The notes below the pieces were generated by a model. The model was given only the letters and a program-made list of their open reading frames with translations. It ran no database searches and was not told where the DNA came from. This document shows positions 3,761-20,821 of a stretch of 36,889 bases of DNA, one piece after another (position 1 is the first letter of the stretch; every line of letters starts with the position of its first letter). Both the position numbers and the translations under genes were made by a program. This DNA is from a virus, in the IMG/VR virus record IMGVR_UViG_3300035156_000369, positions 1-36,889 of that record. One strand, written 5' to 3'.

Positions 3761-5791
3761 TTACTGGTTGGCCGGGGGAAGCGGCTGGGCGAGCAGCTGG
3801 TTGCTGAAGTTATTGCCAAACTGGACGCCAACGTGGTTCGATAGCTGCAGGTTCTGCTGATTGACGCGCTGGATCAGCGGCGCCAGGCTGTTCATGGTCT
3901 GCTGAGCTTCCGTTCCACGCGACAGCAGCATTGCCCCCATCTGGTCGCGCACGGCCTGCGGTGTTGCCGCCCGGTTCCAGACATTCTTGGCCGAGCCGAT
4001 CGCAGAAAGGATGTTCCCCGTCTTGGCCGCCCCCACCGCGGCGCCGGCATCCGTCAGGGCGCCCACGTCGAGGTCTCCCATTCCGGATTGGCGCGCAGCG
4101 GTCTGGGATCCGACGCCGACCGTCTGCAGGCGCTTCAAGGTGGACTCTTTTGCTACATCGGCCGCAAAGGTGCGGTAAGCCCGTTCGTCGCCGAAGATCA
4201 CCCGCAGCTTTTCCTGGGTGGCCGGGTTTTTCCACATATTCATGATTTCGGTCTGGCCGCCCTGCATCCCCAGCTTGCCGCGCAGCCCGTCAAAAGCGCC
4301 GATGCGAAAGGCTTCCAGCTCGTTCCCGGACATGCCTTTGACCGTGCTGAGAATGGACGACTCTTCACGCGAGATCGCCAGCTTGCCAGCGTTGGCGGCA
4401 TCGATGAGCTTGGACGGGCCCGCGAACGCGGCGCGCGCCTGGCCATACAGGGACGCACCGGTTTGCGGGTTTGTCGTTGCTGCATCGAGCTCGCCGGTCA
4501 ACCGATCTTTCAAGGTTTGGTAAGCGTTTCCCAAGGGCGTCATGCTGCCATCCTTGGCGACTGCCTTGCTGCTCCCGAGAACCTGGTCGATACCTTGCTT
4601 GATATGGTCCAGGTCGCCCATGTTCCAGCGCGCAGGCCCCTGAGCGCCAGGATCAAGCGAGAACGGCAGCTGGCGCGCCGTGGCGATTTCTCGCCCGAGC
4701 TTGGTCGCGCCGAGCTTGTCAGCGGCCGTGACGATATCGACGAGTGCTGGCGTTGGCGTGATGTCGACGCCGCGCAGCTGCGTGTACAGAGGTCCGGCGG
4801 CCTGGCTGCGCTGGGTTATCAGCGAGTCGACCGTCGTGCCAAGCCGCTGACCATTGATGTCGAGCGCCTTTTCAGCCGAATCGCGCATGCGATCGCCGAC
4901 GCCGGCGGTGCGCTGGCGCAGCATGTTGTAGGCCGCTTCCTTCGTGCGGCCTGGAAGGGTAGCCAGCGTATCGAGCAGCTGGTTCGTGTTGCGGCCGCCG
5001 GCGTCGGCCAGCACCGCCTCGTCACCCAGCTTGTCGAAGCGCGCAGCGGCCTGGCCAAGTGGACTGACCATTCCACTCGTCGCCAGCGTGCCGCGCGCAT
5101 CACGCGACAGTGCCTGGGCGATCTTCTGCGCAGCAAACGTTGCTGCAGCCGACTCAGACAGGCGCTGTCCGACGTTTCGGCCGACAGCCACCGCGCCGGC
5201 GGCAACGGGCGCGCCGGCCGCGCCCAGGGCGCCGGACAACAGGCCTCCCTTCAACGCGTCCCCAGCGATATCGGTGGCAGTTGCTGCAACTGAACCGCCC
5301 GCGCCGGCGACGGCGCCAAGCCCTGCGCCAACCGCGGCCGACTGCAGGGCGCGTGCGCCTACGCCGGCGACAACGGGCGCCGCTGCGGTCGCGCGCAGGC
5401 CGCCTGCCACGGTCGGCAGCGCAAAGGTCAGGGGTAGCGACGAAAGGCCCTGGCCAATAGCGGATGTGATCGGAGCACGCTCGCGCTGTGCTGCCTCCAT
5501 GCCGCGCACGGTGTCCCGGTTGGCCACGTAATTGTCGGACAGGGTCGATGAAGGATTTTTGACCTTGTCGATCACCGCCCCGACGCCCCCGGCCAGCTCA
5601 TCACCGAAACCGAGCAGCAGGCCATTTGCGCCGAGGACCAGGCCTTGCGCCCACGCCGGCTTCGCTTTGCCTGCCTCGAAATCCTTGTTCACGGGCGGCT
5701 TCGCTGCGCTGACAATCAGGTCTTTGTCCCAAGGCTGTGGACCGGCCTTAGGTGCACTGACAATCGGGTCCTTATCCCATGGGTTTGGCAT
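3761..5791 (-). CDS. Large DNA-ejection / internal virion protein
   Basis: The 676-residue protein begins with two near-identical copies of a PWDKDxIVSAxK motif (residues 4-15 and 20-31), a kind of N-terminal tag seen on podovirus internal proteins. Residues 45-210 are Gly/Ala-rich and contain several weakly hydrophobic segments (VAGVGARALQSAAVGAGLGAVAGAGG), which in ejection proteins can insert into the host envelope. The C-terminal two thirds are helical with coiled-coil character. It overlaps the upstream gene by one base (TAATG). Together with the next two genes it likely forms the set of three proteins expelled from the capsid to build a DNA conduit. No lytic transglycosylase motif is visible. 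Confidence 0.75.
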   Translation of the reverse strand: MPNPWDKDPIVSAPKAGPQPWDKDLIVSAAKPPVNKDFEAGKAKPAWAQGLVLGANGLLLGFGDELAGGVGAVIDKVKNPSSTLSDNYVANRDTVRGMEAAQRERAPITSAIGQGLSSLPLTFALPTVAGGLRATAAAPVVAGVGARALQSAAVGAGLGAVAGAGGSVAATATDIAGDALKGGLLSGALGAAGAPVAAGAVAVGRNVGQRLSESAAATFAAQKIAQALSRDARGTLATSGMVSPLGQAAARFDKLGDEAVLADAGGRNTNQLLDTLATLPGRTKEAAYNMLRQRTAGVGDRMRDSAEKALDINGQRLGTTVDSLITQRSQAAGPLYTQLRGVDITPTPALVDIVTAADKLGATKLGREIATARQLPFSLDPGAQGPARWNMGDLDHIKQGIDQVLGSSKAVAKDGSMTPLGNAYQTLKDRLTGELDAATTNPQTGASLYGQARAAFAGPSKLIDAANAGKLAISREESSILSTVKGMSGNELEAFRIGAFDGLRGKLGMQGGQTEIMNMWKNPATQEKLRVIFGDERAYRTFAADVAKESTLKRLQTVGVGSQTAARQSGMGDLDVGALTDAGAAVGAAKTGNILSAIGSAKNVWNRAATPQAVRDQMGAMLLSRGTEAQQTMNSLAPLIQRVNQQNLQLSNHVGVQFGNNFSNQLLAQPLPPANQ

Positions 5792-13816: not shown

Positions 13817-16002
13817 TGCGGCACGCCTTCATTCGCCACCGGTGGCGCCTGCTCGTCCTGGGGCGAAAAAATAGCCGCTTCAGGCGGCTGTTCGTCGATC
13901 GGCTGTTCGTCGGGCGCTTGCCCGTCCGGCGGCGCACCCGGCGGCTGCATCATGTGGTCGTGGAAGTCGACGATTGCCTGGGTATCTTCCGGTGAGCGCG
14001 GTGCCGGTTCACCCAGCGCGGGCGCCGCCATCATGCGTTCGACGGTCTGCATCACCAGCGCCTGGATTTCTTCCGGCGTCATCGCCGGCGCGACCACCTG
14101 CATGCGCTTGGTGTCGGAGTCCTGTTCCTTGACTGCCGTTTCGCGCTCCTTGATTTCCATGCCCGCTTCGAGCTTTGTCACTTCGGCGTGCGCGTTGTTC
14201 AGCGCCTCGCCCATCTGCTTGACCTGCTCCTGCAGCGCCGTCATTTGCTGCTTGATTTGCGGCGGGATGTCCTGTTCGCCTTCTTCCTTCAGGATCGGGC
14301 TTTCCTTACCGATCTCCATGGCGTCCCACGTCTGGTTCAGCAGCTCGCGCGTGTCGATCAGTGGGGACGTGGCGGGATTCGACATAGCGAAGTCGGCGAA
14401 CGCGCGCAGCTTGTTCGTGAGGATTTCTTTCTGCATGAACGATGCGACGCCTGTGGCCTGCCACTCCATGAACGACGTTTTGCCGAACTGCTTGATCTGC
14501 CCCCACTTCCCGGCGATCTCGTCGCCGTGGATCTTACGCACCGTTTCGACATCCAGATATTTCAGATTCCACTCGATGGTGCGCTCGACGATTTCCTCGA
14601 TCCACATTTCGTCGACGTTCTGGATTACTTCCTTGATCGGCAACGAGCTGGCCGACATGATCATGCTGATGCCGGTCGCTGTCTTGTTCAGGTGGCTGCT
14701 GTCGTCGCCCTGGGTGTACTTCGTAATGCCAGTGTCGTCGTCGCTGAACTGGTCGGACATGGCGATCAGGTCGCGCCAGCCGTCGGTGATGTCAGGTTCA
14801 ACGTGGTGGATGATGGCCGTCTGGCGCTCTTCCGGTGTCAGGCCCGGCTTGAACTGGTAGACCTTTCCCGGGAATTTGCGGAAATCTTCGCGCGGGTCAA
14901 ACTTGGAGCGGTCCACCGAGGCGGTGCCCAGCAAGGCCATGCCTTTGCCCTCCATCACCAGGCGGAAGGCTGCGTTCGTCACCTTCTGATGCGGCGCGTT
15001 GTTTTCGGCCACGCCAACGCCCCAGATTTCGTGCTCGACCGCTTCGTAGACGCAGCGCAGCGCCGGGCACTTGCCGCCGTAGGGGGACGGGTCGACCTTC
15101 ACCACCACGCCGCCAGCCATGATGACGATCGCGTCGACCATCTCACCGTCTTCCAGCTCGACAGCAGGTTCGCCTTCGGCCGCCCGTGCCTTGCTCAGTG
15201 CGGACTTCGGGATCTTGCCGAAGAAGCGCGCCACCTTGATGCGGTCACCCTTGTGCCAGTAATCAACGTTGCCGCGCAGCTGCACGGCTTGCTCGCTGCC
15301 CGTGTCGTTCGCGTCACCCGAACCCTTCAGTGCCATGTCGATATCGTGGTAGCGCTTGTCGTACTTCCATGCCGCCACCGTGTGCTTCGATTCCATCGTG
15401 GCCCAGAACACGCCCAGGCCGGCGTCGACGTCGCGTGCTTCCGGGTCGGGGTACACGTCCAGGCTGCTGCCCAGCTCGAAGTACGGGAAGTCGAATTCGT
15501 ATTTCTTTTCCACCAGCGCAGTGACGCCCAGCGAGTTATCCGCACTGGTCTCGGTGATCGATTCCTTGCGCACAAAGGGGCCGAACACGAAGCCGGTGCC
15601 GTATGTGGCCAGCGTGTTGACGCCGGTCTTGATCATCGCCTTGAACTTCATACGTTCGAACTGCTCGGTGAGGATGTCCTCGACCGCGTCGGCCCAGGGC
15701 GCCAGCTTCTCGTTCGTCGGGGTGGTGTCGAAGGGCAGCTTGCCGGCACCGAACAGTGCGTCGTTGATCTTGGCCCGGGCAGCACGCACCTTGTTGCGGC
15801 TCGATCCGATGAACAGGCTTGCCGCTTTCTTCGCGCGGGCCGCGCCGGTACCGGTCGTGTCGTTGTCGCGCGGGATGCGCATCACGTCCTGGTAGCACTC
15901 CAGCATCTTGAGCTTTTGCGGCTCGCGCGCATTCTCCCAGCCGGTCAGGCGCTCGCATAGCAGGCTGCATAGGCCGGCGTTTTGTTGGAGTGTATGGCTC
16001 AT
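13813..16002 (-). CDS. Portal protein
   Basis: The 729-residue protein starts at 16002 (MSHTLQQNAGL), where the start overlaps the terminase stop by one base (TGATG); a longer in-frame extension into the terminase gene is a shadow. Blocks typical of large podovirus portals include FIGSSRNKVRAARAKINDALFG, VNTLATYGTGFVFGPFVRKE, YFELGSSLDVYPDPEARDVD and SSHLNKTATGISMIMSASS. The C-terminal 150 residues form a coiled coil (QQMTALQEQVKQMGEALNNAHAE) and a Pro/Gln-rich acidic tail, like the barrel region of long portals. The dodecameric ring is the DNA entry and exit gate. Confidence 0.85.
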   Translation of the reverse strand: MSHTLQQNAGLCSLLCERLTGWENAREPQKLKMLECYQDVMRIPRDNDTTGTGAARAKKAASLFIGSSRNKVRAARAKINDALFGAGKLPFDTTPTNEKLAPWADAVEDILTEQFERMKFKAMIKTGVNTLATYGTGFVFGPFVRKESITETSADNSLGVTALVEKKYEFDFPYFELGSSLDVYPDPEARDVDAGLGVFWATMESKHTVAAWKYDKRYHDIDMALKGSGDANDTGSEQAVQLRGNVDYWHKGDRIKVARFFGKIPKSALSKARAAEGEPAVELEDGEMVDAIVIMAGGVVVKVDPSPYGGKCPALRCVYEAVEHEIWGVGVAENNAPHQKVTNAAFRLVMEGKGMALLGTASVDRSKFDPREDFRKFPGKVYQFKPGLTPEERQTAIIHHVEPDITDGWRDLIAMSDQFSDDDTGITKYTQGDDSSHLNKTATGISMIMSASSLPIKEVIQNVDEMWIEEIVERTIEWNLKYLDVETVRKIHGDEIAGKWGQIKQFGKTSFMEWQATGVASFMQKEILTNKLRAFADFAMSNPATSPLIDTRELLNQTWDAMEIGKESPILKEEGEQDIPPQIKQQMTALQEQVKQMGEALNNAHAEVTKLEAGMEIKERETAVKEQDSDTKRMQVVAPAMTPEEIQALVMQTVERMMAAPALGEPAPRSPEDTQAIVDFHDHMMQPPGAPPDGQAPDEQPIDEQPPEAAIFSPQDEQAPPVANEGVPQ

Positions 16003-17273
16003 CAGAAATAGAATCCGTCGTTGTCGGGTAGCGGCTGGTCGATCTGGCGTACTGCACCCAGATCCTCGTTTGTCATGTCCTCGGCATTCACTGCGATATA
16101 TCGCAGGTTGTCGGCGCCGTGGCTCCATTCGTCGTGCAGCGGGGCGCCGGCCTGCTGCGTCGTCTGGTTGATGCTGCGCCGGTACCGCTTGGCGCACTGG
16201 ACCATGCGTGCGGCCTTGGTCTTGTCGAAATACAGGCGGGGGAACGTCATGCGCGTCAGGCGGATGCCGTCCTCGATGCTCGTGTTCGGCGTGATCTTCA
16301 CGTCCCACCCGAGCGCCTTCATGATTTCTTCAGCGCTCTTGCCGGTTTTGTAGTCCTTGTGCCGGCCGTCGTGGGGCAGGTACAACGTGCCCCAGTTCAT
16401 GTTCATTTTTTTCAGCTCGGCCGAATACCAGTCGAGCGTTTTATGCGAATCTTCGATCTCGCCGATAATGCGCAGCTCGCTGGTGTGCTTCTGCACCAGG
16501 CTGATGAACATCGAATCGTTCCAGCCCAGATCGAACACCACGTGCACTTTGAGCAGCGGGTCGTACGGAACGTTGGCAATGCGCTTTTCTTCCTGCGCCT
16601 TCGAAATCTGCTCGAAGTAGATGGCACCCACCACGGCCGGCATGCACCGGCCCTCCCAGATGTTCATGTACTCGGCGTCGGACAGCGTCGCCTTGGCGTG
16701 CAGGCGCTCCTTTTCCAACACAGCGGGGAACCACGGGTTGTCCGTGTAGTTCATATCGACGATCTTGCAGTCGTCCGGGCAGTCGGTAATGAAGCGGACA
16801 AACGTCTCGTCGGTGTCCAGCTCGGGGTTGAACGTGATCCAGATTTCCGAGTCGTCCTTGCGGATCGTCGGGATCAGCGTCTTCCAGGAGCGCTTCGATA
16901 CCGTCTGCGCTTCCTCCACCCAGACGATGTCGCAACCCTCGAACGACTTGATCGAGTCAACCGTCTGCTCGGACAGGCCGGAAAAGCTGAATTCGGTGCC
17001 ATTCTTGCCTCGAATCTCGTTTTCCAGAACCTTGTAGAACTTGGACAGGCCCAGGGTTTCAATCTGGTCTTTCAGCAGCTTGTGGACTGACTGCTTGATC
17101 GACTTCTGCACTTCGCGCGTGCACAGGATGCGCAGCCGGCGCGAGGAGCCCAGGATCAGCAGCGCCTTTGCCACGCTCCACGACTTCGCACTACCGCGTC
17201 CACCCTTGGCGCCCTTGTACCGGTGTTTCTCGTTCAGCAGGAATTGCAACTTTTCCGGGAATTTAACGTTCAT
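16002..17273 (-). CDS. Terminase large subunit (PBSX/Terminase_3-like)
   Basis: The 423-residue ATP-driven packaging motor and nuclease has Walker A GAKGGRGSAKS (21-31), Walker B DIVWVEE (115-121) and the coupling-type block WITFNPELDTDE. The C-terminal nuclease shows acidic positions in VVFDLGWNDS and LYLPHDGRHKD and the typical DEWSHGADNLRYIA ending block. The length is normal for this family. It overlaps the small-subunit gene by 11 bases and the portal gene by one. Headful packaging is likely by analogy with P22-like relatives but cannot be read from the sequence. Confidence 0.92.
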   Translation of the reverse strand: MNVKFPEKLQFLLNEKHRYKGAKGGRGSAKSWSVAKALLILGSSRRLRILCTREVQKSIKQSVHKLLKDQIETLGLSKFYKVLENEIRGKNGTEFSFSGLSEQTVDSIKSFEGCDIVWVEEAQTVSKRSWKTLIPTIRKDDSEIWITFNPELDTDETFVRFITDCPDDCKIVDMNYTDNPWFPAVLEKERLHAKATLSDAEYMNIWEGRCMPAVVGAIYFEQISKAQEEKRIANVPYDPLLKVHVVFDLGWNDSMFISLVQKHTSELRIIGEIEDSHKTLDWYSAELKKMNMNWGTLYLPHDGRHKDYKTGKSAEEIMKALGWDVKITPNTSIEDGIRLTRMTFPRLYFDKTKAARMVQCAKRYRRSINQTTQQAGAPLHDEWSHGADNLRYIAVNAEDMTNEDLGAVRQIDQPLPDNDGFYF

Positions 17274-17850
17274 CGGTCGATTTCACGAACTCGATGGAGA
17301 AATTCATGTTGGCGGTCTCGTCGTCCTCGCCCTTATTCATTTTCTCGATGACTTCCTTGTTGGCGCGCAGCAGATTCATAGGGCCTTCCATTGCGCTGTT
17401 TGCCAGTTTTTGCAGGGCGGCGTGCGACTGAAGGAACACCGCGGTTTTCATCGGGTCGACATCGTCAACCCGTTCCATCTGCTGGTTGGCCAGCATCGAC
17501 AGCCGGTGCGCGGAAGCGGCGCTGTACTCGGCTGCCGAACCGAGGTGGTGGCTGATGTTCGCCAACTTGCGCGCCAGGTCCGACACGATCGCCTGGCCTG
17601 CGAACGGCAGCTGGGCGATCTGCTCGCTGATCCGTTTGCTCGCGGCGTCCGCGCGAACCTTCTCTTCGGCCAGCGCGGCCAGCTTGTTCTTGCCGTCGGG
17701 CGCGTCCTTGCCACCCTTCAGGCGCCGGCGGATCGATGACTCGTTCACACCGAAGTCCGCAGCGAGTTTGTTGAACGAGTCGCCGTCCACCAGGTGGCGC
17801 CGCTCGACCTCGATCCACTGCTCAGGCGTGAGGGATGATCTACGCCCCAT
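17263..17850 (-). CDS. Terminase small subunit
   Basis: The 195-residue protein has an N-terminal helix-turn-helix (residues 8-45, PEQWIEVERRHLVDGDSFNKLAADFGVNESSIRRRLKG) suited to binding the packaging site, followed by helical oligomerisation regions. It sits directly upstream of the large subunit and overlaps it. It would select phage DNA and start packaging. The HTH plus position make the call firm, although no named subfamily is recognised. Confidence 0.85.
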   Translation of the reverse strand: MGRRSSLTPEQWIEVERRHLVDGDSFNKLAADFGVNESSIRRRLKGGKDAPDGKNKLAALAEEKVRADAASKRISEQIAQLPFAGQAIVSDLARKLANISHHLGSAAEYSAASAHRLSMLANQQMERVDDVDPMKTAVFLQSHAALQKLANSAMEGPMNLLRANKEVIEKMNKGEDDETANMNFSIEFVKSTDER

Positions 17851-17987: not shown

Positions 17988-18347
17988 CTATGCGGCGGGA
18001 GGCAGCTCGCCCTGAGAAAGCTTTTCAAGAAAAAGTTCTACGTAAACCATGGTGAATGCACCAACTCCCTGCAAGATGAATCGACCGCTCAGCGCCGCGG
18101 CGTTCACCATGCCTAACCATGGGTTCTCCATACTGGTGTGGCCAATATCTAACAGCAGAATCGGGAGGTGGATGTCGTTTCCGACAATCTCAAGGCCAGA
18201 CAGCTTTGGAGCGTCGCCAACATTTGCGACGCCGTGAAAGCGAAGAGCCCTGCCGTCGAGGCCAGGTGGCGTAATGACAATCTCGTCTCCAGCTTTGATC
18301 GAAAAGAATCCCGAAAAGACTTTTTCTTTTCCGTTAACAGTAATCAT
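17988..18347 (-). CDS. Accessory protein, paralogue A of unknown function
   Basis: The 119-residue beta-rich protein starts MITVNGKEKVFSGFFSIKAGD. It resembles the product of 18804-19151: both open with an I-x-[IV]-NG-K/NK-VFS block, then a KAGDEIVI/AKGDNVLL block followed by PPG or PPD. There is no signal peptide, membrane span or catalytic motif. AAGGCGAACT precedes the ATG. Each paralogue has its own conserved upstream element and a terminator, like an independently expressed accessory gene (moron). The location beside a Tad2-like gene suggests anti-defence or host interaction, which is inference only. Confidence 0.65.
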   Translation of the reverse strand: MITVNGKEKVFSGFFSIKAGDEIVITPPGLDGRALRFHGVANVGDAPKLSGLEIVGNDIHLPILLLDIGHTSMENPWLGMVNAAALSGRFILQGVGAFTMVYVELFLEKLSQGELPPAA

Positions 18348-18398: not shown

Positions 18399-18470
18399 CG
18401 CAGCTGATGAGCGAATCCAAGACTCAGTGTGGCGGCCGGACCTCGCCGTACCTGACGCGATCAGCGCTTA

Positions 18471-18568
18471 ACCACACGACTGCCGACTGAAGGCGGTAGC
18501 TAACCGGCCATGTTCAGGTATTGCGGACCTGTCAATCGGCATGCGTGTGGCGCCTCGTTTCGTGAGGC
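18471..18568. repeat. Structured hairpin repeat, unit 1
   Basis: Positions 472-478 (last three digits after 18) pair with 544-550 (CCACACG/CGTGTGG); two mismatches follow, then 481-486 with 536-541 (TGCCGA/TCGGCA), one C/A mismatch, and TGA/TCA. Inside are CAGGT and ACCTG at 18515-18531. A short hairpin GCCTC/GAGGC (18552-18568) follows. The C/A mismatch becomes a G-U pair in RNA from the minus strand, so the structure is tighter in that orientation. A second unit with the same plan starts at 18640. Confidence 0.7.
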
Positions 18569-18639
18569 AACCGTCAAGCGCTTCATGCAGCGAGCGTCTG
18601 AACCAAGGTAGCGTGAATCGGCCCGATATCAAGGCGGGT

Positions 18640-18744
18640 ACCACACGACTGCCGACCGGTACGAAGCCGTCAAGCCTCGCCCAACCAGGAGGACCAGTCC
18701 TGCCGATCGGCATGCGTGTGGTCACCGGTTGCGCCGGTGAGGCG
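18640..18744. repeat. Structured hairpin repeat, unit 2
   Basis: The outer stem CCACACG/CGTGTGG (18641-18647 with 18715-18721) and the inner stem TGCCGA/TCGGCA (18650-18655 with 18707-18712) are the same as in unit 1, as is the C/A mismatch. The next three pairs are CGG/CCG in place of TGA/TCA, so two base pairs have changed on both sides. A 7-bp hairpin TCACCGG/CCGGTGA (18722-18740) follows, replacing the GCCTC/GAGGC hairpin of unit 1. The interior sequence is otherwise different. The two units are separated by about 70 bases. Confidence 0.7.
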
Positions 18745-18750
18745 GAATGC

Positions 18751-18783
18751 AAAAAGCCCGCGACCTTTCGGTGCGGGCTTTTT
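18751..18783. terminator. Strong bidirectional intrinsic terminator
   Basis: AAAAAGCCCGC and GCGGGCTTTTT pair over 11 bases, with an inner ACC/GGT stem and a TTTC loop. Runs of five A and five T on the two sides allow termination in both directions. For the minus strand it ends transcription of paralogue B; for the plus strand it would end any RNA made across the hairpin repeats. Confidence 0.85.
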
Positions 18784-18803
18784 GGAAACAGGTTCAGTTT
18801 TTT

Positions 18804-19151
18804 TTAGAAACCGTGCTGATGAATGTCGACGTGCACAAGCATATAGGCGCCAGCTCGATGCCCGGAAACCCGGCAGTTCACCGGACCTTGTGCCGAGACA
18901 AATTGATCACCGTTAAAGTCCGCCGCGAAGTCAGCCGTACCGACGACAAATGGAACTTCACAGATCATTTGGTTTTCTGCGTGCCGACGGATGAAGTCCG
19001 GCGCCCCTGCCGGCCATTCGCTTTCCAATTTATCGGCAACGATTTTTACGGTCAGGCCCGCAATATCAGGCGGCGCCAGCAGAACATTGTCGCCTTTCGC
19101 CATCATGAACGAGGCGGAGAATATTACTTTATTACCATTAATGTTTAACAT
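18804..19151 (-). CDS. Accessory protein, paralogue B of unknown function
   Basis: The 115-residue protein starts at 19151 (MLNINGNKVIFSASFMMAKGD), where GGAG sits at a normal distance; upstream in-frame codons are not needed. It is a diverged copy of the protein at 17988-18347, with the same length and N-terminal blocks and a beta-rich pattern (QMICEVPFVVGTADFAADFNGDQFVSAQ). The C-terminus is His-rich (MLVHVDIHQHGF). The gene has its own upstream element and terminator. The function is not recognised. Confidence 0.65.
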   Translation of the reverse strand: MLNINGNKVIFSASFMMAKGDNVLLAPPDIAGLTVKIVADKLESEWPAGAPDFIRRHAENQMICEVPFVVGTADFAADFNGDQFVSAQGPVNCRVSGHRAGAYMLVHVDIHQHGF

Positions 19152-19197
19152 TTGCATCTCCACTTTCCGTTATACGCAGTACTTTCGCGTTATCTAC

Positions 19198-19253: not shown

Positions 19254-19739
19254 CTATTCGACCAACTGCCAGTCGTCGGCCAGCGCGTCGCTGCCGCTCG
19301 GCGCCCAGGTGCTGACCGTGTCGTCGACACCCTTCAGCGCCATGTACGCGTTGTACGGAACCATCGAGCCTTCACCGAAGTGCGACTTCGCAGCGCCGGT
19401 CTGCACCGGATACGATGCGGCCGGTACCAGGTAGACGAACATGCCCTTGCCGTTCCAGCCAGCGCGCGCGACCTTGGCGCCTTTCTTCAGCGCTTCGACG
19501 GCCAAGCCGAACGGCATGCCAGTGGTCGAGCGGTAGGCGCCATCGAACTGTTCCTTCGGGGACCAGCTGACATAGCCGGCATGGCCCGCGACGTTCGGCT
19601 TGCCGCCGTCGGTGTATTCGACCAGGTAGCCTTCGTCATTGCCGTCTTCGTTGGCCGGCAGCGACCAGCCGCGATATTCGTTGTAGATCGCGCGAGTCAT
19701 TGCCAGCGCGATGACGATCTTGGTTCCGATGAAGCGCAT
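19254..19739 (-). CDS. DUF2829 / Tad2-like protein (anti-Thoeris family) with N-terminal extension
   Basis: The C-terminal 85 residues match DUF2829: MPFGLAVEALKKGAKVARAGWNGKGMFVYLVP, then PYNAYMALKGVDDTVSTWAPSGSDALADDWQLVE at the end. DUF2829 proteins include Tad2, which sequesters the cyclic ADP-ribose-type signal of Thoeris defence. The first 75 residues form a separate block (MTRAIYNEYRGWSLPANEDG, then DEGYLVEYTDGGKPN and AGYVSWSPKEQFDGAYR) seen in other phage proteins. The total is 161 residues, longer than minimal Tad2. AAGGA precedes the ATG at 19739. Family membership is clear; anti-Thoeris activity is inferred from the family. Confidence 0.8.
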   Translation of the reverse strand: MRFIGTKIVIALAMTRAIYNEYRGWSLPANEDGNDEGYLVEYTDGGKPNVAGHAGYVSWSPKEQFDGAYRSTTGMPFGLAVEALKKGAKVARAGWNGKGMFVYLVPAASYPVQTGAAKSHFGEGSMVPYNAYMALKGVDDTVSTWAPSGSDALADDWQLVE

Positions 19740-19794
19740 GGTTTTCCTTACTTGTGGCGCAGCACGGAAGTGTGAGCGCAAAGTGAGCGGCAAT

Positions 19795-19830
19795 AAAAAA
19801 AGCCCCGCTGTCCTTTCGGAGGCGGAGCTT
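19795..19830 (-). terminator. Intrinsic terminator after the early right operon
   Basis: On the minus strand AAGCTCCGC and GCGGGGCTT pair over nine positions (one G-T), with an inner TCC/GGA stem, followed by seven T. It separates the putative late regulator gene from the Tad2-like gene. Confidence 0.8.
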
Positions 19831-19893
19831 ATTTTCGGGCGCACGAAGCCCCGATGGCCGAATCTTACATCAGGTTTTTCGGATTGGCAACAA

Positions 19894-20391
19894 TCAACAT
19901 GCGACGCGGTCCTTCAACATTTGGAACAGGCGCTCGACGGCCTGGTCGAATACACGCGCAAAGTCCGTGCGCCAGACGGTCTGCGTGTTCAGGCCGTAGT
20001 GCACCATCACCGCCTCGCGCTCCATCACCGGAAGATCCCACACGGCCGTGTGCAGCTCACGCACCAGGCGCTTGTTGACCTCGATCTCCATGTCGTCGAA
20101 CGAATTGATCCGCGCATCGGGCGCGCCCAGGCACTGGCGCGGCGCGCCCTCGGCGATCGGCTCGTTCGTGCGGATCCAGTCGGCCCAGCCGTCGAGCAGC
20201 AGGACAACATTGTCGCAATGCTGCTGGTGCGCGGTCCGCTTCGGCGCAGGTGGCACAACCAGCGTGCGCGCAGCCAGCACGGCAATCACTGCCAGCTCAA
20301 CCGTCGCGATCTCGGCAATTTCGTCGTCGAAGATGACGTCCGGTACCGGCGCGCACTTGCCGCGCCAGCCAAGGGTAAGTTTTGTGCGCAT
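19894..20391 (-). CDS. Putative late-gene transcription regulator (Q-like position)
   Basis: The 165-residue protein starts at 20391 (MRTKLTLGWRGK) with AGGA upstream; an ATG at 20412 is also possible. The last 50 residues (LPVMEREAVMVHYGLNTQTVWRTDFARVFDQAVERLFQMLKDRV) look like a sigma-region-4 type helix-turn-helix found in phage late activators and antiterminators. It is the last gene of the early rightward operon, followed at once by a terminator and then the late genes, the place of Q in lambdoid phages. The exact family is not recognised, so the role rests on fold impression and position. Confidence 0.5.
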   Translation of the reverse strand: MRTKLTLGWRGKCAPVPDVIFDDEIAEIATVELAVIAVLAARTLVVPPAPKRTAHQQHCDNVVLLLDGWADWIRTNEPIAEGAPRQCLGAPDARINSFDDMEIEVNKRLVRELHTAVWDLPVMEREAVMVHYGLNTQTVWRTDFARVFDQAVERLFQMLKDRVAC

Positions 20392-20395
20392 TCCG

Positions 20396-20821
20396 TCAGT
20401 CCTCTTCGCCATGGTGGCGTTTAATGGCTTTTGCGCCGCGGTCGATTCCGACGGCGACAAGCAGCACCGCGGCGAGCGCGGCAAATCCCAGCAAAATCAG
20501 GGCGGTTTGGACATTCAACTTTTGGCCTCTTTTAGTGGTTGCGCTGGGGCAACTTTTTCGGCGTTTCAATAGAGCAACAGCGACATACCCGAAGGAAGCG
20601 CCTCCTATGGCAGAGCAGATTTTCAGCGCATCCGGATCGCCGGTTTTATTCGGCTTTATAAATCGCTTTTTTTGCGCCGGATTGGCGTTTTCCAGCATTT
20701 CGATGCCGCTTGGCAATGCAGAAAAGGTGCGAAAACAGGCAGGTTTTGCGCTCGAAATGGCGCCTTGAATCGAGCGGTTTTGGCCGGAAATCGTGAAAAG
20801 TGACGGATGACTGTTAATCAT
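20396..20821 (-). CDS. Small putative membrane protein downstream of the recombinase
   Basis: This 142-residue ORF begins with an ATG that overlaps the recombinase stop as ATGA. It has two hydrophobic segments, about residues 71-90 (LKICSAIGGASFGYVAVALL) and 105-125 (ALILLGFAALAAVLLVAVGI), with a basic loop between them. The first 45 residues are unconvincing. A shorter product from a TTG at 20518 (40 residues, preceded by GAGG) containing only the second membrane segment is an alternative. The family is not recognised. Without this gene the 300 bases after the recombinase would be non-coding. Confidence 0.45.
   Translation of the reverse strand: MINSHPSLFTISGQNRSIQGAISSAKPACFRTFSALPSGIEMLENANPAQKKRFIKPNKTGDPDALKICSAIGGASFGYVAVALLKRRKSCPSATTKRGQKLNVQTALILLGFAALAAVLLVAVGIDRGAKAIKRHHGEED

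Follow-up and report, generated by a model that had tools for sequence, protein, structure and literature searches.

The locus

The window, that is, the whole stretch of DNA analysed here, corresponds to a 36,889-base virus record in IMG/VR that contains no host sequence. Its minus strand has the layout of a temperate-type phage: replication genes are followed by an integrase gene, a Q-like gene, a Tad2-like gene, an orphan ORF of 119 aa, the RNA element that is the subject of this work, a second orphan 119-aa ORF, and the genes for the small and large terminase subunits (Table 1). ARAGORN finds no tRNA gene in the window.

The Q-like gene, whose true start is probably near 20394, has no PHROG or Pfam family match. 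Directly after it stand the candidate late promoter, a conserved initial transcribed sequence, CATCGGGGCTTCGTGCGCCCGAAAATA, and a terminator, which together occupy 19795-19890 (minus strand) in the window and 10480-10585 in L011, a locus with a relative of the Q-like gene. The candidate late promoter and terminator are followed first by the Tad2-like gene (19254-19844, minus strand), which encodes an anti-Thoeris domain (PF11195, E 1.7e-23). Each of the two orphan ORFs is preceded by GTGTTAGCAT, and a search for relatives of the two 119-aa proteins found none.

Table 1. Features around the RNA element, in minus-strand order
Feature	Position	Strand	Remarks
Q-like regulator gene	19894..20484	minus	Named from position and adjoining promoter-terminator, not from a family match
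Candidate late promoter	19862..19890	minus	TTGCCA-17-TAAGAT, then the initial transcribed sequence common to L011
tR'-like terminator	19795..19828	minus	Just past the candidate late promoter; same place in L011
Orphan 119-aa ORF upstream of the RNA	18804..19163	minus	
Bidirectional intrinsic-terminator-like hairpin	18750..18784	both	Directly upstream of unit 2
Unit 2 (5' copy in the RNA)	18638..18742	minus	P0 18739-18723; P1 5' strand 18722-18715; P2/P3/P4 branch; P1 3' strand 18647-18640
Unit 1 (3' copy in the RNA)	18466..18572	minus	P0 18568-18552; P1 5' strand ~18551-18544; P2/P3/P4 branch; P1 3' strand 18478-18471
Short GCGC/GCGU hairpin between the two P1b strands	18455..18467	minus	Occupies the place of the relatives' D-like hairpin; small-type relatives L016, L040, L042, L055, L056
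Candidate P1b 3' strand GCCACAC	18427..18434	minus	Partner of unit-1 GUGUGGU; family-conserved, weak in the window (6 pairs, one U.G)
Orphan 119-aa ORF downstream of the RNA	17988..18347	minus	N-terminus resembles the upstream 119-aa ORF
Terminase small subunit	17263..17850	minus	PHROG matches
Terminase large subunit	16002-17273	minus	After terminase small subunit; PHROG matches

Two tandem units and their fold

A preliminary description of this DNA had reported two structured repeat units at 18471-18744, sharing stems and mismatches and differing by compensatory changes. The units are indeed there, as direct copies of ACCACACGACTGCCGAC at 18471 and 18640 with the other arm at 18528 and 18699, and so are the TGA/TCA versus CGG/CCG pairs, the 2x2 mismatch, and the C/A mismatch of the plus strand, which is U.G on the minus strand. 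As had been said of the loops, these differ: loops and P4 are wholly different between the copies, and the layout is identical. Each unit was also credited with a second hairpin following it. Such neighbouring hairpins are present and unlike each other, but in the RNA they sit 5' of the unit, abutting P1 directly. The element extends past the interval first reported: a second candidate partner of the P1 3' strand lies further 3', at about 18434-18427 (minus strand), and the bidirectional terminator-like hairpin (18784-18750) stands just upstream.

The complete minus-strand layout common to both units consists of the P0 hairpin, P1 (8 bp), a 2x2 loop, P2 (10 bp), P3 (5 bp with a 7-nt loop), a 5-nt joint, P4, and 1 nt. 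P1 is RCCACACG/CGUGUGGU and the 2x2 loop is CA/GU. A unit measures about 100 nt, and roughly 150-250 nt with the second domain described below. The folding z-scores of the units are -5.2 and -4.8 on the minus strand and -3.4 and -3.4 on the plus strand; none of 200 shuffles folded as well.

Relatives of the element

A covariance-model search, suggested earlier as a check, was run with R1, a model built from the two window units, and relatives were found in Oxalobacteraceae prophages. At E <=0.01, R1 matched 10 of 392 Oxalobacteraceae genomes; the clear matches were 6, in 5 genomes, and included a tandem pair in G317 with a spacing of 179 bases. From the clear matches a consensus pattern, CCACACGCATG-N45-75-CAGYCGTGTGG, was derived, which matches 41 IMG/VR viral contigs. 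The reversed pattern, used as a control, matches none. When the gap was lengthened to 76-106, 12 contigs were matched, of which 9 were new. These nine long-insert contigs lay outside the training of a second covariance model, R2, and thus provide an independent test, in which R2 matched all nine with E values from 2e-16 to 1e-10.

Several other searches yielded nothing or were set aside. Three of the 41 pattern contigs (L043, L044, L053) hold one repeated sequence without P0 and were judged to match by chance. One exact pattern scan with the window units gave no match; another gave three contigs (L006-L008) with one common stretch unlike the RNA, also judged chance. BLAST of the region and of the consensus against named phages produced no true match. 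R2 gave no match to the RNA up to E 0.5 in loci related through the terminase small subunit (L002-L005) or through the Q-like gene (L009-L012). R2 scans of 399 and 369 bacterial genomes were near-empty but carry low weight, as 9-10 of up to thousands of candidates were scored per genome; because these scans were uninformative, the genomes were searched with the consensus pattern instead.

Covariation and strand

The alignment A3 contains 43 sequences, both window units among them. In it, 91.3% of cells pair, compared with 29-42% in slid controls. Changes on both sides occur in 15 of 24 pairs (126 cells), and none of 500 shuffles reaches any of the measures, although such shuffle counts overstate significance because related sequences are not independent. 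The compensatory changes that the preliminary description took for a conserved RNA structure thus extend across a family. A3 omits the three contigs judged chance (L043, L044, L053), weak members (L050, L062, L052), and copies of L035 (L064, L065); also outside it are L020, L022, and L023, weak matches judged chance, together with L019 and L021.

The core of P1 is invariant across A3, partly because the contig scan demanded P1 exactly. Support for P1 therefore comes from its continuity with P2 and from the R1 matches, which were found without that requirement: in the R1 search, the same P1 sequence occurs in L014-L018 with one base changed.

The U.G wobble is kept in 31 of the 43 sequences, which fixes the strand of the RNA. 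R2 scores agree, at 82.7 bits (unit 2) and 84.0 bits (unit 1) on the minus strand versus 28.0 and 29.1 bits on the plus strand. Reading in the late-gene direction, which had been proposed from the C/A mismatch, is accordingly upheld.

Two further structures lie upstream of P0 in some relatives. A hairpin, GCGTAACTTCGGGATAAGC, is found in 6 of 42 loci (L014, L029, L038, L042, L048, L058); it has a UUCG loop and a bulged-G-like motif, and we take it to resemble a 23S rRNA hairpin. A module with the loop TGCCTNAT occurs in 9 of 42 loci (L015, L016, L026, L032, L033, L046, L057, L059, L063), and its stems read CGC/GCG or CCC/GGG, a compensatory change.

A second partner for the conserved strand

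Further downstream, the flanks of the element contain another RCCACA with a hairpin directly against it. An initial, cruder test of its pairing with the conserved GUGUGG (P1b) was not significant (p 0.16). In a second test the partner was chosen solely by its abutting hairpin, blind to the bases tested. The base that follows GUGUGG then forms a pair with the one preceding CCAC in 33 of 37 loci, against a permuted mean of 27.2 (p 1e-4); counting Watson-Crick pairs only, the figures are 24 versus 15.8. The first two positions together give 58 pairs versus 46.4 when permuted (p 2.5e-4). The count dropped L019, L021, L025, L029, and L047, and it kept the rows in which the automatic partner differed from the choice by eye, as happened in several loci (e.g. 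L027, L031, L036, L038, L058).

In L021 the strand reads UGUUGG, and both of its partners have CCAACA or CAACAC in place of the usual sequence. The D-like hairpin inside the P1b helix shows double changes in 4 of 5 pairs (13 loci). P1b covaries and a hairpin abuts it; canonical T loops are present in only a few loci (L035, L060, L021), and in L035 and L060 an acceptor-like strand and then GCCA come after canonical T arms. The P1b of the window is weak, and the fold of lowest energy there contains P1.

P1 and P1b draw on a common strand and are mutually exclusive. With its second covarying partner downstream, the conserved GUGUGG makes the fold a switch of three strands; in the second state, a domain the size of a tRNA is closed.

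Genomic setting and linkage to tRNA genes

Among whole viral records, R2 finds the element in 34 of 34, at one locus each, single or tandem, with a possible second site in one record. The consensus pattern occurs in 0 of 399 Burkholderiales genomes and 3 of 385 Oxalobacteraceae genomes, at no more than one locus per genome, and all five bacterial loci examined adjoin phage packaging genes; at one of these (L106) the next gene is a portal gene rather than a terminase gene. The element thus does not behave as a REP-type palindrome, one of the three identities that had been offered for it. Repeats without an RNA role, including REP elements and a pair of transposon ends, would account for tandem imperfect palindromes with unlike inner parts, but are already refuted by this copy number and by the RNA-type covariation; the phage context of the five bacterial loci also counts against them. 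Integron attC sites, which end in the motif GTTRRRY, were rejected by eye, as no matching end was seen.

The survey of proteins encoded around the element omitted some ORFs that were short or overlapped others; it covered 104 of 113 ORFs downstream on the RNA strand, 103 of 107 upstream, and 95 of 112 downstream on the opposite strand. The leading families downstream on the RNA strand are terminase large subunit, terminase small subunit, and HNH endonucleases of many kinds. Upstream, the leading named families are integrase, replicative helicase, primase, and helicase loader, with recombination genes as well. Among the 25 families listed for downstream opposite-strand ORFs there is no terminase or HNH. 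The site of the element is the junction between replication and packaging genes, upstream of HNH and terminase genes of many families.

In 42 viral loci (363,326 bases), ARAGORN finds 11 tRNA genes, and all 11 are on the RNA strand within 270 nt of the element, 9 downstream and 2 upstream; the fraction expected by chance is about 4%. This count left out L114 (a copy of L110), L043, L044, L050, L053, L062, L064, and L065. Most loci have no tRNA gene. In the bacterial locus L017, the element lies within an array of seven tRNA genes, and in the bacterial locus L019 a tRNA-Gly follows it. L011 has the Q-like gene, late promoter, leader, and terminator of the window without the element, and a tRNA-Gly occupies its slot. 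In L047 a real tRNA-His begins within the P1 strand. In L107 a real tRNA-Tyr (3895-3986, minus strand) is enclosed by P1b, whose pairing takes in the A-CCA end of this tRNA. The units themselves are not called as tRNA or tmRNA by ARAGORN or by the Rfam tRNA and tmRNA models, which call only separate, real tRNAs.

Comparison with known RNAs

The window has no Rfam match at gathering score. When the region and 11 loci were scanned at a relaxed threshold, real tRNAs were the only matches above cut-off, all others being sub-threshold, and the GOLLD and ROOL models had no match in the window or these 11 loci at the relaxed threshold. Sub-threshold matches to RF02278, "Betaproteobacteria toxic small RNA", were seen in L042 (2024-2090, plus strand; 41.9 bits) and L016 (1399-1463, minus strand; 30.8 bits), in both cases at the terminator that separates the RNA from the first late gene; the RF02278 family may in part consist of phage late-leader terminators.

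Like tRNA and (permuted) tmRNA, the element has a 7-bp closing helix, a D-like hairpin, and a further hairpin set directly against the 3' strand; L035 and L060 have canonical T arms with GCCA ends, and real tRNAs stand at the same place in L047, L107, and L011. Unlike them, most members have no TTCRA loop, CCA, or anticodon arm. Also comparable, though from a different phage group, are stable RNAs C and D in the tRNA cluster of phage T4, small RNAs of unknown function encoded among tRNAs.

GOLLD and ROOL are structured noncoding RNAs whose function is unknown and which phages and prophages encode, in many cases close to tRNA islands; GOLLD members are often >800 nt and their level rises during lysis (PMC12286853). 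The present family is likewise phage-encoded and near tRNAs, as the 11 tRNA genes within 270 nt in 42 viral loci indicate, but GOLLD and ROOL have other folds and their own Rfam models, and the unit here is about 100 nt.

The HK022 put RNA works on RNA polymerase by way of the zinc-binding domain of beta'. HK022 put is about 70 nt with two stems and belongs to early operons (PMC9378689). The present element is also a phage leader RNA of adjacent stem-loops and could act on transcription; it is set apart, by description, by its late leader position upstream of terminase, its branched hairpin, its second exclusive pairing, and its tRNA linkage. The suggestion of a put-like antitermination site is not supported, given the early-operon location of put (PMC9378689) and the candidate late promoter-terminator pair that this phage already has beside its Q-like gene. 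The accessible literature on structured phage RNAs, processive antitermination RNAs, terminase-leader RNAs, GOLLD/ROOL-like and tRNA-like phage RNAs, in which few subscription journals are covered, contained no description of the element. Structured RNAs of phage tRNA islands are a known kind; the family and its two-partner architecture appear to be new.

Proposed role and alternatives

The data support an RNA gene or a leader element of phages, at the place where late transcripts begin and phage tRNAs are encoded. In the explanation we prefer, the two units would be tandem copies of a structured noncoding RNA in the phage late transcript, in the leader that separates the late promoter-terminator pair from the first packaging genes, a slot filled by tRNA genes in relatives. 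Its core is a P0 hairpin abutting RCCACACG, a variable branched hairpin behind the conserved 2x2 loop, and the strand CGUGUGG, which pairs either back (P1) or forward with the second RCCACA after another hairpin (P1b), closing the tRNA-sized domain. The existence of the family, its strand, its location and its linkage to tRNAs are shown, as are both pairings through covariation in the family, whereas transcription, processing, action in trans and a partner in the tRNA machinery are inferred. Most likely, the element would be transcribed with the late operon and processed alongside neighbouring tRNAs, and the resulting stable RNA would act in trans via tRNA-like features, perhaps with a partner in the tRNA machinery. 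To this explanation as a whole, a late-leader RNA co-processed with tRNAs and acting in trans, we assign a probability of roughly 0.5. That most members have no canonical T loop and CCA end counts against it, as do the non-significant first test of the second pairing, the weakness of P1b in the window, and the failure of ARAGORN and Rfam to call the units tRNA or tmRNA. A small RNA was the best of the three identities first offered, although the element is larger than was envisaged, is associated with a tRNA slot, and has two exclusive folds that had been overlooked.

A possibility to be taken seriously is a cis-acting switch in the late-operon leader, in which selection of P1 or P1b, either in the course of transcription or through the binding of a factor, would set read-through of a terminator before the first late gene, as an attenuator or a put-like antiterminator. 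The element heads the packaging operon in phages with unrelated terminases, and it has two conserved, mutually exclusive pairings. Sense terminators within 600 nt downstream are present in 20 of 42 loci versus 5 of 42 for antisense ones, an excess that keeps the cis reading alive. However, the terminator overlaps neither pairing and tRNA genes can intervene (L056), and read-through in the window already has a candidate in the promoter-terminator pair beside the Q-like gene. A processed trans-acting RNA is judged a little more likely than a cis leader switch because tRNAs replace the element in its slot and the same leader and terminator occur in L011, with a tRNA and without the element.

An unlikely role is that of a tRNA processing element, in which the P0-P1-P2 hairpin would hold or release the partner strand for the RCCA end in a following tRNA or tRNA-like domain, and so time the maturation of the latter. 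In L107, GUGUGGU can pair with the A-CCA-CA end of the embedded tRNA-Tyr, the tRNA-His of L047 shares the strand, and all 11 tRNAs are near an element. However, because most loci lack a tRNA gene, this can be the role in general only if the domain downstream stands in for the tRNA. Less probable still is a packaging RNA or a DNA-level packaging site (pac or cos) beside the terminase genes. The element does usually adjoin terminase or HNH genes, but the terminase families are too varied for a single recognition element, the relatives of the terminase small subunit in L002-L005 come without it, and the conserved U.G wobble and the strand bias indicate RNA and not a DNA site.

A more specific formulation of the RNA we favour is offered tentatively. 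The element may represent a new class of phage RNA, in which two modules resembling tRNA 3' ends, each a hairpin plus RCCACA, flank one shared acceptor-like strand and switch between a hairpin resembling a permuted tRNA and a tRNA-like domain. As the strand can also pair with the ACCA end of a real phage tRNA, phages may in this way couple late expression or tRNA maturation to the state of tRNA.

Significance

Many unrelated bacterial viruses share a folded RNA, previously unclassified, that lies ahead of their packaging genes and often by tRNA genes. Its units of about 100 nt are of a size that allows direct probing and mutation. A compact RNA with strong covariation, found at one genomic place next to unrelated packaging genes, probably has a general role late in infection. 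That it is linked to tRNA genes, and that real tRNAs take its place in some phages, bears on the role of the RNAs of phage tRNA islands, GOLLD and ROOL among them.
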